Assembly: GCA_013214905.1 (NCBI GenBank)
Contig: JABSRV010000013.1
Span: forward strand, 1 to 38,296
Length of the DNA: 38,296 nt
Direction: 5' to 3'
Source of the DNA: Psychrobium sp.
GTDB taxonomy: Bacteria; Pseudomonadota; Gammaproteobacteria; Enterobacterales; Psychrobiaceae
Part shown: piece by piece, positions 3,656 through 38,296 of the stretch
Layout: the number at the start of each line of letters is the position of its first letter
Numbering within the stretch: the stretch's first letter is position 1
The notes under the pieces: generated by a model
Told to the model about the DNA's origin: nothing
What the model saw: the letters and a program-made list of their open reading frames with translations, nothing else
The model's database searches: none
Translations under genes and position numbers: made by a program

Positions 3656-3695
3656 AACTTTATACCCATAATCAATGGTCACGGGTATAAAAGTT
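3656..3695 (-). repeat. Hairpin in the pstS leader (TATACCC-type inverted repeat)
   Basis: AACTTTATACCC (3656-3667) and GGGTATAAAAGTT (3683-3695) are complementary apart from one bulged T, leaving a 15-base loop. The structure ends 26 nt before the pstS ATG and would fold in the leader mRNA. The TATACCC/GGGTATA ends match those of the elements at 6958-7163 and 37129-37396, so it may be a shortened relative rather than a dedicated regulator. Confidence 0.55.
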
Positions 3696-6957: not shown

Positions 6958-7163
6958 TATACCCGTCATATTTTAAACCGCAGTTTGATTAATAAATACG
7001 TCGTGTATTTCTCCAAAGGCCGCCACAAGCGACGTTCATAATATTTCCAGAATATTTTGTGGCGGCGTTTCGAAACTTGACGGCTTTGCCTACACGAATG
7101 TAGGTACTCCGGTTTTGTCTGGCACTGAAAACCTGCACTGCAATTCCAATAAATTTGGGTATA
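6958..7163. repeat. TATACCC-bounded intergenic repeat element (206 bp)
   Basis: Starts with TATACCC and ends with GGGTATA. Inside are a 10-bp perfect stem GCCGCCACAA (7019-7028) / TTGTGGCGGC (7057-7066), enclosing a smaller AATATT/AATATT pair, and a 6-bp hairpin CCTACA-CGAA-TGTAGG (7089-7104). There is no ORF. It abuts the porin Pho box on one side and the sbcC stop on the other. It resembles a non-autonomous (MITE-like) element, although the ends beyond TATACCC are only weakly inverted. Confidence 0.6.
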
Positions 7164-14187: not shown

Positions 14188-14276
14188 CAACCAATTGTAT
14201 TAATGAAGTGACCAATTTTGTAGTGAGGATAAACGGATTAGAGCACATGTTCATAGTTCCAGACTGAACATAAGCA

Positions 14277-14338
14277 CCCACATCCTTGTGGGCGAAGCAT
14301 TTATTTCTTATTGTAGTTATTCTACAAAGAAAATAAAT
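14277..14338. repeat. Two adjacent hairpins (CCCACA stem and AT-rich palindrome)
   Basis: CCCACATCCTTGTGGG folds with a 6-bp stem. Next to it, ATTTATTTCTTATTGTAG and CTACAAAGAAAATAAAT (14299-14338) form a longer imperfect stem, with a perfect inner TTGTAG/CTACAA pair and a TTATT loop. There is no T run suited to termination. They may be the end of a repeat or a leader structure. Confidence 0.5.
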
Positions 14339-14358
14339 AACGCCGCTATTATTCGTTT

Positions 14359-14517
14359 ATACCAATTCCATTAATTATGTGATCTTGTTGTGCGACGAAA
14401 AAATCAGCTAGAACAAGGCGCTCGATTGACTAATAGCTGGCTATTAGGATAGAGAGCAACGATGTAATAGTTAATTTTAACAAGCACAAGTTATCAGATC
14501 ATTACTGGAATTAGTAT
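14359..14517. mobile_element. 159-bp MITE-like repeat, copy 1
   Basis: Bounded by ATACCAATTCCA and TGGAATTAGTAT, imperfect terminal inverted repeats. It aligns without any gap over its full 159 bp with 26610-26768. The most conserved part is the central GGCGCTCGATTGA, AATAGCTGGCTATT and GAGAGCAACGA. The centre is itself a palindrome (CTAATAGC-TG-GCTATTAG). There is no ORF, so any transposase must act in trans. Confidence 0.8.
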
Positions 14518-26328: not shown

Positions 26329-26610
26329 ATGAACACCCTAATCAAAGCCACTTTCGTTATCGCCAGCATCGCAATTTCGTTTGCAAGCAACGCAGCGATC
26401 GATAGTGAGATGCAGTTAAATTCAGCTCTTACGGAACAAGAAGTTGTTAGCATGTTAGGTGATGATATGAAGATGAATAAAATTGAACTGAAAAAAAACA
26501 TCAGCTTTAAAGCATCGAAACCTCTATCACCAAAAACAGAAAATTTTGGTTTGGTAACAGTGCGCACGATCAATACCCCATCAATGATCATGACCGTCAG
26601 CAAACGCTAA
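26329..26610 (+). CDS. Small secreted protein, unrecognised family
   Basis: 93 residues from the ATG at 26329, which has AAGGA 6 bp upstream; the longer track ORF (26119) reads through the gcvA promoter and lacks support. The N-terminus (NTLIKATFVIASIAISFASNAAI) is a signal peptide with probable cleavage after SNA. The mature ~70 residues are polar and lysine-rich, with no cysteines or recognised domain (MQLNSALTEQEVVSMLGDD, later VRTINTPSMIMTVSKR). It is expected in the periplasm or outside. It is divergent from gcvA, and its stop codon overlaps the first base of the second 159-bp repeat copy. Confidence 0.75.
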   Translation: MNTLIKATFVIASIAISFASNAAIDSEMQLNSALTEQEVVSMLGDDMKMNKIELKKNISFKASKPLSPKTENFGLVTVRTINTPSMIMTVSKR

Positions 26611-26768
26611 TACCAATCCTCGTTGAAGAGTGATCTTGTTATGTGTAGGTAAAGCTGGTGAAGACTAGGCGCTCGATTGACCAATAGCTGGCTATTGGGA
26701 TTGAGAGCAACGACGTATTCAGCTGCTTTAACCAGCATAAGTGGGCAGTCTTTAATGTGGATTGGTAT
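26610..26768. mobile_element. 159-bp MITE-like repeat, copy 2
   Basis: Bounded by ATACCAATCC and GGATTGGTAT, which are perfect 10-bp inverted ends. It aligns base for base, without gaps, with 14359-14517. The centre carries GGCGCTCGATTGA, AATAGCTGGCTATT and GAGAGCAACGA. Its first base is the last base of the upstream TAA stop codon. There is no ORF. Confidence 0.85.
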
Positions 26769-35698: not shown

Positions 35699-36268
35699 GT
35701 GATTAAACGATTATTATTCTTATTAATGACAACAATATTAGTTGGTTGTAGTACTACAATCGATCCTAATAAGCTTGTCGGCCCCGTCACCCAGCAATGG
35801 CAATTTAACGGTAAATTTGCCGTGCGCTCGGTAAAAGAAACAAAATCAGCCAAAATTAATTGGCAACAACTTAACGATCAATTCGACATTAACCTCTACA
35901 CCACATTTGGTATCACCGTGATGAAAATCAATGGCGGACGTAATCATGTGCAAATAGATGACGGCAGCGACACGTATAAAGGCACCTCGGCAGGTCACCT
36001 TATTTGGCAACTTACCGGTTGGCATGTACCCATTGACCAAATGCAGCAATGGGTTCAAGGGGATGTCAAACAGGCTATTAATGTTAAATTAGATCAATAC
36101 GGACGCTTCAAAAGTGGCGACATTATCGGCGAAAACGGTCAAGTTTGGCATTTAAAACTGAGTAAGTACAAAAACGTTGATGGCTACATCCGCCCTCATA
36201 GTCTGTTACTAAGTCAGCAAAAACTATTTTTCAAACTCGCAATATCAAAGTGGCAAATACAAAAATAA
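35699..36268 (+). CDS. lolB: Outer-membrane lipoprotein receptor LolB
   Basis: 189 residues. LolB accepts lipoproteins from LolA and inserts them in the outer membrane. The start is GTG 35699: it gives a lipoprotein signal MIKRLLFLLMTTILVGC with lipobox LVGC (Cys17), whereas the internal ATG would leave too short a signal. The mature part shows WQFNGKFAVRSVKETKSAKINWQQ, LIWQLTGWHVPIDQMQQWVQG and YGRFKSGDIIGENGQVW, the LolB pattern. No good Shine-Dalgarno is visible. The stop overlaps the ispE start (TAATG). Confidence 0.92.
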   Translation: MIKRLLFLLMTTILVGCSTTIDPNKLVGPVTQQWQFNGKFAVRSVKETKSAKINWQQLNDQFDINLYTTFGITVMKINGGRNHVQIDDGSDTYKGTSAGHLIWQLTGWHVPIDQMQQWVQGDVKQAINVKLDQYGRFKSGDIIGENGQVWHLKLSKYKNVDGYIRPHSLLLSQQKLFFKLAISKWQIQK

Positions 36269-37128
36269 TGAATACAGAAAACACCTGGCCAGCACCCGCG
36301 AAATTAAATTTATTTCTACATATCACCGGTAAACTCGACAATGGTTACCATACACTGCAAACCATCTTTCAATTTTTAGATCATGGCGATACATTGTCTT
36401 TTTCAGTCAATCAAACGGACAAAATATCTATTGCCCCAGATGTCGTTGGCATTGCGTTAATAGATAATCTTATTTATCGCGCCGCGATTTTATTAAAGCC
36501 ATACGCTAATAAAAACGCTGGCGTGCATATCGATCTTGATAAAGTATTGCCTATGGGCGCGGGTTTGGGCGGCGGCTCATCTAATGCTGCCACTACGTTA
36601 GTGGCATTAAACCATCTTTGGCAAACAAATTTATCTAATGAGAAACTAGCGCAGCTAGGGCTAAGCCTTGGCGCTGACGTGCCTATTTTTGTGCACGGTT
36701 TTGCAGCCTTTGCGCAAGGTGTCGGCGAAGACCTCACGCCAGTAACACCACCTACTCCCTATTATTTGGTTATTTGGCCGGGCATTAGCGTTAGCACTGC
36801 AGATATTTTTCAAGCGCCAGATCTACCCAGAAATACTCCCATGCTGACATTAGAGCAGCTCGCAACCGCGCAACTGGGTAATGACTGCCAACAAGTCACA
36901 AAAAATCGTCATCCTGAGGTTGCCAGCGCCCTCGACTGGTTGATAGAATACGCACCAGCAAAAATGACAGGGACTGGCAGTTGTGTTTTTGGAGAATTTG
37001 ATAGTGAGCAGGCAGCGAACGCCGCACTGGAAAAATTACCCAACTCAATGCATGGATTTGTCGCTAAGGGCATGAACAGCTCACCATTAGCGATAAAATT
37101 AGCGCAACAACAGTCATCATTATTGTAA
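36268..37128 (+). CDS. ispE: 4-diphosphocytidyl-2-C-methyl-D-erythritol kinase IspE
   Basis: 286 residues. A GHMP kinase of the MEP isoprenoid pathway. Start ATG 36268 (MNTENTWPAPAKLNLFLHITG) overlaps the lolB TAA by one base; the track start at 36250 is a GTG inside lolB. It carries PAKLNLFLHITGKLDNGYHTLQTIFQFLD, the phosphate loop LPMGAGLGGGSSNAATT (about 95-109), LSLGADVPIFVHG and the C-terminal MTGTGSCVFGEF. The lolB-ispE-prs order is the standard one in gammaproteobacteria. Its stop codon is followed at once by a 268-bp palindromic element. Confidence 0.96.
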   Translation: MNTENTWPAPAKLNLFLHITGKLDNGYHTLQTIFQFLDHGDTLSFSVNQTDKISIAPDVVGIALIDNLIYRAAILLKPYANKNAGVHIDLDKVLPMGAGLGGGSSNAATTLVALNHLWQTNLSNEKLAQLGLSLGADVPIFVHGFAAFAQGVGEDLTPVTPPTPYYLVIWPGISVSTADIFQAPDLPRNTPMLTLEQLATAQLGNDCQQVTKNRHPEVASALDWLIEYAPAKMTGTGSCVFGEFDSEQAANAALEKLPNSMHGFVAKGMNSSPLAIKLAQQQSSLL

Positions 37129-37396
37129 TATACCCAAGTTACTTGAAAATGCGAGTTTCAGAGCTCGGGTAGGATGCCAGAACAAGGCATGACTTGTAAG
37201 CAATGGTTATTCCCTTACTTAGAGTCATAACGCCGTGCTGGCTTTCTACCCGAACTCCCGCTGAGAAAGGCGATAAGCGACCAACTACGGCGTTATAAAA
37301 CCTTGATGTAGAGTGACTAGAACGGCGGTCTTATGCCTTGTATTTGGCACGCTTCTCGACTTGCTGAGTTCTGCATTTCCAGGTAGCTTGGGTATA
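37129..37396. mobile_element. 268-bp imperfect palindromic (MITE-like) element between ispE and prs
   Basis: The ends are TATACCCAAGTTACTTGAAA and, read from the other side, TATACCCAAGCTACCTGGAA, continuing as AATGC, so ~25 bp of near-perfect terminal inverted repeat. Further nested pairs are TGCCAGAACAAGGCAT (37175-37190) with ATGCCTTGTATTTGGCA (37333-37349), and ATAACGCCGT (37227-37236) with ACGGCGTTAT (37287-37296). Nearly the whole element can fold on itself. There is no ORF. It starts directly after the ispE stop codon. Confidence 0.82.
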
Positions 37397-37430
37397 AATT
37401 TACTATTAGCTAATATTTAGCTAATGAACT

Positions 37431-37469
37431 GGCGGATTCACACCGCCCACCAACCCCCTGAGGTTTCAC
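37431..37469 (+). promoter_or_regulatory. prs leader: small hairpin and ribosome binding site
   Basis: GGCGG (37431-37435) and CCGCC (37443-37447) form a short GC stem in the leader. TGAGG at 37459-37463 is a Shine-Dalgarno 6 bp before the GTG start of prs and supports that start. No recognisable PurR box is seen. Confidence 0.5.
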
Positions 37470-38296
37470 GTGCCTGATATTAAATTGTTTGCTGGGAATG
37501 CCATTCCAGAACTAGCTAAGAAAATTGCCGATCGTCTTTCTCTAAAATTGGGTCAAGCGACTGTGGGTCGTTTTAGTGCCGGCGAAATTAGTGTACAGAT
37601 CAACGAAAATGTTCGTGGGGCAGATGTCTTCATCTTGCAATCAACTTGTTCGCCAACCAATGATAACCTGATGGAATTATTGGTTATGGTTGATGCCCTT
37701 CGACGAGCTTCTGCTGGCCGAATTACTGCTGTAATTCCTTATTTTGGTTATGCGCGTCAAGATCGTCGTGTACGAAGTGCCCGCGTACCAATCACCGCTA
37801 AGGTAGTTGCTGACTTCTTATCTAGTGTTGGTGTTGACCGTGTATTAACAGTGGATTTACACGCGGAGCAAATTCAAGGTTTCTTCGATGTGCCAGTGGA
37901 CAACGTATTTGGTACGCCGGTATTACTTGAAGATATCAAAGAACGTAAGTTTCATAACCCAATCGTGGTATCTCCAGACATTGGCGGCGTAGTACGTGCA
38001 CGTGCGCTAGCTAAATTATTAGACGATGCAGACCTTGCTATTATCGACAAACGTCGTCCAGCAGCTAACGTTGCTCAAGTAATGCATATCATTGGTGATG
38101 TTAAAGGCCGTGATTGTATTATTGTTGATGACATGATTGATACCGGTGGCACCTTGTGTAAAGCCGCTGAAGCGTTAAAAGAGCACGGTGCTCGCAGCAT
38201 CTATGCTTACGCTACGCACCCAGTATTTTCAGGCAGCGCCGTGACTAACATTGCTAACAGTGTGATTGATGAGTTCGTCGTGACTGATTCAATCCC
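37470..38296 (+). CDS. prs: Ribose-phosphate pyrophosphokinase (PRPP synthase), 3' end beyond window
   Basis: The ORF is open to the window edge (275 codons of ~315), which is why the track omits it. From GTG 37470 it reads [20 protein letters not shown] and then closely follows E. coli Prs: [85 protein letters not shown], and the PRPP loop [18 protein letters not shown]. It makes PRPP from ribose 5-phosphate and ATP for purine, pyrimidine, histidine and tryptophan synthesis. The upstream region is shortened to ~70 bp by the palindromic element, so the promoter may lie within or across that element. Confidence 0.97.

Follow-up and report, generated by a model that had tools for sequence, protein, structure and literature searches.

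A probable IS630-type MITE with a covarying two-hairpin interior between ispE and prs

In the usual view, a MITE requires nothing but its ends. Several families of short intergenic repeats have been described in bacteria. In E. coli and Salmonella, copies of ERIC (enterobacterial repetitive intergenic consensus) have TATACTCGTCATACTTCAAGTTGCA as their ends and occupy a TA target (PMC2759123). RUP (IS630-Spn1) has ends like those of IS630-family ISs, and the CIR elements of Caulobacter and Brucella consist of two arms and a linker (PMC2229807). The element described here, located between ispE and prs, is probably a gene-less MITE of the IS630/mariner type, with a covarying two-hairpin interior that would act as DNA. 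Its conserved part is the interior, whose shape is maintained by covarying pairs and which also occurs between the ends of different transposon families.

Insertion at ispE-prs

The window (the whole stretch of 38,296 nucleotides that was analysed) carries the element at positions 37129-37396, with no strand assigned; 264 bp (37131-37394) lie between two TA dinucleotides, as judged from the terminal inverted repeats (TIRs), the flanks and the empty site in eight relatives. Rechecking of the ends and flanking genes upheld these coordinates, as well as the proposed start directly after the ispE stop codon (37126-37128); the distance to the prs GTG at 37470, predicted at about 70 bp, was 73 bp. 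Upstream stands ispE (36268-37128, plus strand; NCBIfam TIGR00154, E 4e-92) and downstream prs (37470-38296, plus strand, cut by the window end; NCBIfam NF002320, E 2e-142). Inverted repeats of about 25 bp had been claimed, and arms of 24 nt that are 88% complementary were indeed present: the left one (37129-37152, plus strand) is an IS630-type end, TATACCCAAGTTACTTGAAAATGC, and the right one (37373-37396, minus strand) reads TATACCCAAGCTACCTGGAAATGC. The termini of the element's family match those of IS630-family ISs end-to-end. No open reading frame of 80 aa or more occurs inside the 264 bp.

A search of the element's own genome (G000, 3.9 Mb in 447 contigs) uncovered a second full copy, 98% identical (C415:25759-26026), together with about 20 further TIR ends and other copies, full or partial, that are more diverged. 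Matches to the TIR pattern numbered 12 per strand, against none for the reversed control. All eight same-genus genomes that have the locus displayed a short ispE-prs gap devoid of the element, so the insertion is specific to the source lineage. When the element is removed, the joined window gap aligns to these eight relatives and the conserved prs leader block is unbroken; this block (37397-37469, plus strand) lies just downstream of the insertion, which left it intact. The element is thus mobile, its site being empty in relatives and its copies lying elsewhere in the genome. That it might instead be a fixed regulatory leader of prs, as its position could suggest, is hardly conceivable given its absence from all eight relatives with the locus and its copies at other sites. 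The leader of the genus itself (window 37397-37469 and L067-L074) displays two conserved hairpins, the first with apparently compensatory changes (TTAGC/GCTAA, TTAGT/ACTAA) and the second formed by TGGCGG...CCGCCCA; a conserved prs leader element in the genus is possible.

Among 115 copies with flanks, the outermost bases were T in 97% and A in 91%, and no longer direct repeat was apparent. TA duplication was judged on these other copies, the window's own empty site being too diverged to fix its length. A copy from Motilimonas (L150:7027-7350) is inserted inside an ERIC element, and excising it with one TA restores the five-base ERIC hairpin loop, as in the ERIC of Vibrio litoralis. This nested copy and the T/A flanks agree, and would fit TA as the target of the element.

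The proposal that the element supplies a promoter to prs, or a terminator, was not supported: the scan detected a single promoter-like site where 0.9 were expected, and this site is on the minus strand; it detected no terminator-like site. An effect on ispE-prs read-through is possible. The element is probably passive at this locus, where it would lengthen the ispE-prs gap and furnish any read-through RNA with a strong hairpin.

IS630-family ends and distribution

Examination of the same genome with DDE_3 revealed remains of IS630-family transposases, one of them a decayed IS630 copy of 1116 bp with ends TATACCC...GGGTATA and a broken reading frame. Related elements of about 1.1 kb occurred in other genera, many with an open frame and with ends such as TATACCCAATCAACTTGAAGATGCAGG; the first 24 bases of this right end are identical to repeat-element ends in G021 and G045, two genomes that belong to another family. 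When 120 copies were aligned locally with IS630-family elements, the 40 best alignments were all exactly terminal, spanning 27-60 bp (E down to 3e-6). Since its ends match those of the 1.1-kb transposons, including the decayed copy in the same genome, the element is classified as a MITE: it is short, lacks a transposase gene, and displays TIRs, TA duplication, multiple copies, empty sites and ends in common with autonomous IS630-family elements. An origin by internal deletion of an IS was rejected, the interior not being homologous and the best matches being confined to the terminal 27-60 bp.

MITE-rich genomes were mostly devoid of detectable IS630 (DDE_3) transposase and IS-bearing genomes contained few such ends, so we infer the partner, and mobilization in trans, from the termini. 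An IS630-family transposase would move the element by cut-and-paste into TA. Within the loci analysed, TIR pairs 0.7-4 kb apart yielded no convincing autonomous parent; a candidate of 2.65 kb in G045 was discarded, as its genes were ordinary ones. At window 3662-3690 lies a 29-bp palindrome, (T)ATACCCATAATCAATGGTCACGGGTATA, apparently composed of two IS630-type ends back to back, and many similar ends occur in the genome.

Scanning one genome per species with the pattern retrieved at least 118 stretches. Among the matches listed, named carriers were Vibrio, Photobacterium, Shewanella, Parashewanella, Colwellia, Psychromonas, Moritella, Motilimonas, Pseudoalteromonas, Catenovulum, Alkalimonas and Algicola, in addition to uncultured relatives, and lengths clustered at 261-267 bp with a few at 250-253 and 269. 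The scan pattern restricts length to about 246-276 bp, and unconstrained end pairing in the analysed loci gave the same peak. Within the order, a covariance model of one half matched 140 of 395 genomes, representing 41 of 115 genera. When used as query against plasmids, phages and E. coli, the window copy had no match; a Vibrio copy matched seven plasmid records. Literature text searches returned nothing relevant for the end sequence or the family.

Two inverted hairpin modules

Folding of the 268-nt strand gives -110.5 kcal/mol, whereas shuffled sequences give -72.5 +/- 5.0 (z -7.6); not one of 200 shuffles folded as well. The original prediction described one long hairpin. Its strong self-folding stands, and the long hairpin is a real alternative in the window copy, where the two folds are nearly equal with RNA energies (-74.9 versus -72.3); yet 75 copies show a TIR helix closing two separate arms. 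Pairing within arms was better than A-to-B pairing in 74 of these 75 (arm and duplex energies, with RNA and DNA parameters), and the arms are stable (mean z -5.4). Arm A (37162-37256, plus strand), delimited by covariation, comprises an outer helix (37162-37183/37235-37256) and an inner helix (37186-37194/37223-37231), with an internal loop made of CAAGGC (37183) and TAACGC (37228). Arm B (37264-37365, minus strand) is its inverted homologue and displays GCGTTA (37290) and GCCTTG (37335) on the plus strand. R2, a module model without the ends that was trained only on the 264-bp family, scored 70.8 bits for arm A and 71.7 bits for arm B. Likewise, model R1, built from arm-A halves, recovered the other half of elements in the opposite orientation, in the window at 37261-37395 on the minus strand (69.7 bits). 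An HMM made from A interiors recognised 51 of the 75 B interiors and 10 of 1025 shuffles. Arms A and B are homologous modules in inverted orientation, each a predicted hairpin of about 95 nt. Their TAACGC/GCGTTA motifs suggested attC sites of integrons, a candidate that was set aside: the motifs belong to an internal loop in each of two arms, not to the two ends of a single hairpin.

The 47 copies below 90% identity fold into the TIR helix closing two arms. Both-side changes occurred in 56 of 75 pairs, and 92.8% of cells were paired, against 34-41% when the columns were slid by one to three positions. When all column pairs of the 75 copies were considered, with no structure chosen beforehand, 25 of 33,930 were significant against a home-made null of 20 alignments simulated on the tree (not R-scape): 23 belong to the predicted fold, two are nested inside arm B and no significant pair is in conflict with the fold. 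Across genera, compensatory changes preserve the helices, and they do so with no strand polarity. Relatives across many marine bacteria retain the folded shape while the letters change, and it seems that the shape itself matters.

What this shape is kept for can be read in several ways. The core could be a mobile structured RNA, transcribed copies acting as processing site, stability element or sRNA; such roles have been proposed for NEMIS in Neisseria and, in Yersinia, for ERIC, and hairpin-forming MITEs affect nearby mRNA (PMC2229807, PMC2267715). The strong compensatory change, the conserved motifs of the loop, the stable arms and an intergenic position near genes would suit this explanation, which we nevertheless judge unlikely. 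RNA helices tolerate G-U but not A-C. In 43 arm pairs without fixed wobble, G-T was no commoner than A-C (79 versus 99), unlike in a control of 12 tRNAs from the analysed loci (18 G-U to 0 A-C); this speaks against selection acting on a one-stranded RNA. Nor did mismatch polarity depend on the direction of flanking genes (17:22 versus 29:31, p 0.68); orientation between tandem genes was random (25:22) and 18 of 91 sites were convergent, in a rough count with gene context taken from the longest open frames. No promoter or terminator was found, and no Rfam family exceeded its gathering threshold. Equal G-T and A-C is what DNA-level constraint or templated correction of the arms predicts; it can also come from RNA action in both orientations, or from mutation alone perfecting the arms.

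The last of these would require no function at all, template switching in replicating hairpins simply copying one arm onto the other. Quasi-palindrome correction is an established mechanism in bacteria, and it would account for pair changes without G-U intermediates. Yet the internal loop, which correction alone would erase, stays mismatched and is conserved in both arms and with other ends; this argues that correction by itself is insufficient. Size was also held at 261-267 bp in most copies, and we regard mutation alone as a rather unlikely explanation. Our best guess is that the core acts as a DNA-level structure. As hairpin or cruciform, it would take part in upkeep or mobility of the element, which is the weakest step of the proposed mechanism; templated correction of the arms perhaps helps to keep the fold, which would not be an RNA acting on prs.

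The same core between other ends, and known systems

Outside the family on which it was trained, R2 also matched single-module elements of about 159 bp ending in ATACCAAT, with up to 70 bits in L130. Two of them are in the window: one at 14358-14517, with ends TATACCAATTCCATTAAT (43.5 bits), and one at 26610-26768, with ends ATACCAATCC whose 23 nt are 83% complementary (36.2 bits). A further weak module match was recorded at 14273-14365, beside the former. Elements ending in TAGGGTCTGTTGATCTTT also carry the core, either as a single module (L105, 64.5 bits) or as two inverted modules in 265-266 bp (L139 and L284). In Parashewanella, the module is present in 243-bp elements ending in TTGAACCTAGAAAACTCAG (L169 and L177); these module-bearing elements were recorded at L169:715-811 and L177:2928-3023, with ends TTGAACCTAGAAAACTCAGTTGGG. 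Fifteen of 18 inspected R2 matches were bounded by inverted ends scoring at least 13; in the same loci, 2.4% of randomly chosen places were. ISSod6 from Shewanella oneidensis, annotated as IS5-like, has an end that agrees at all of 22 nt with the TAGGGTCTGTTGATCTTTGCTG end of L284.

Because R2 matches have other ends, including ISSod6-like ones, the same folded core is carried between ends of different transposase families, which it may have reached by end exchange, nesting or common descent. We tentatively propose that this hairpin core is portable, its shape and internal loop being conserved while its letters vary: it would be common to miniature elements with IS630-type, ISSod6/IS5-type and at least one more kind of ends, would be a functional part of the element, in addition to the ends, by acting as folded DNA, and would have changed ends over time. 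Such a conserved interior predicts a function for MITE interiors that is directly testable in laboratory strains. The window also carries, at 6958-7163, a TIR-bounded element of 206 bp from another family, TATACCCGTCATATTTTAAACCGCAG, with a relative at G000:C392 (L226:2322-2534).

Concerning known systems, the core-bearing elements L284 and, with similar ends, L139 and L105 connect the core to ISSod6, whose transposase belongs to a family other than that of the IS630-type ends of the window element. RUP and Correia/NEMIS are likewise short, gene-less and hairpin-forming, with inverted ends and a TA target; the window element differs by its 264 bp, its two inverted covarying modules and an interior that is not IS-derived. 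CIR elements, compared by description, are mobile intergenic repeats that are also predicted to fold into two arms, but measure about 110 bp, lack TIRs and display a GANTC motif.

ERIC resembles the element in its ends. ERIC-type ends (TATAC.C...TTCAAG.TGCA) at TA are found in the window element in similar, not identical, form, and ERIC ends are close to those of the 264-bp family and to IS630 right ends; ERIC also holds AAGGC...AACGCAG. That the element is itself an ERIC copy is nonetheless very improbable. ERIC measures 127 bp instead of 264, nhmmer found none, and its interior was missed by both module models (with filters off, the best score was 4.6 bits, outside the ERIC core), which is why the element was not filed as ERIC. 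ERIC as a single-module form of the family was rejected as well, the models being negative and the motif alone being shared. According to a 2007 review, ISs with similar ends were known only for RUP (PMC2229807). The ends of ERIC (L287:160-286) resemble the right ends of 1.1-kb IS630-family elements found here (L258 and L259; TATACCCATCATACTTCAAGATG), which makes the latter a candidate autonomous partner for ERIC. The window element resembles ERIC, IRU and RU-1 by IS630-type ends, TA target, intergenic position and strong folding, and ERIC and the 264-bp family both occur in Vibrio litoralis; ERIC, in contrast, is a single stem-loop.
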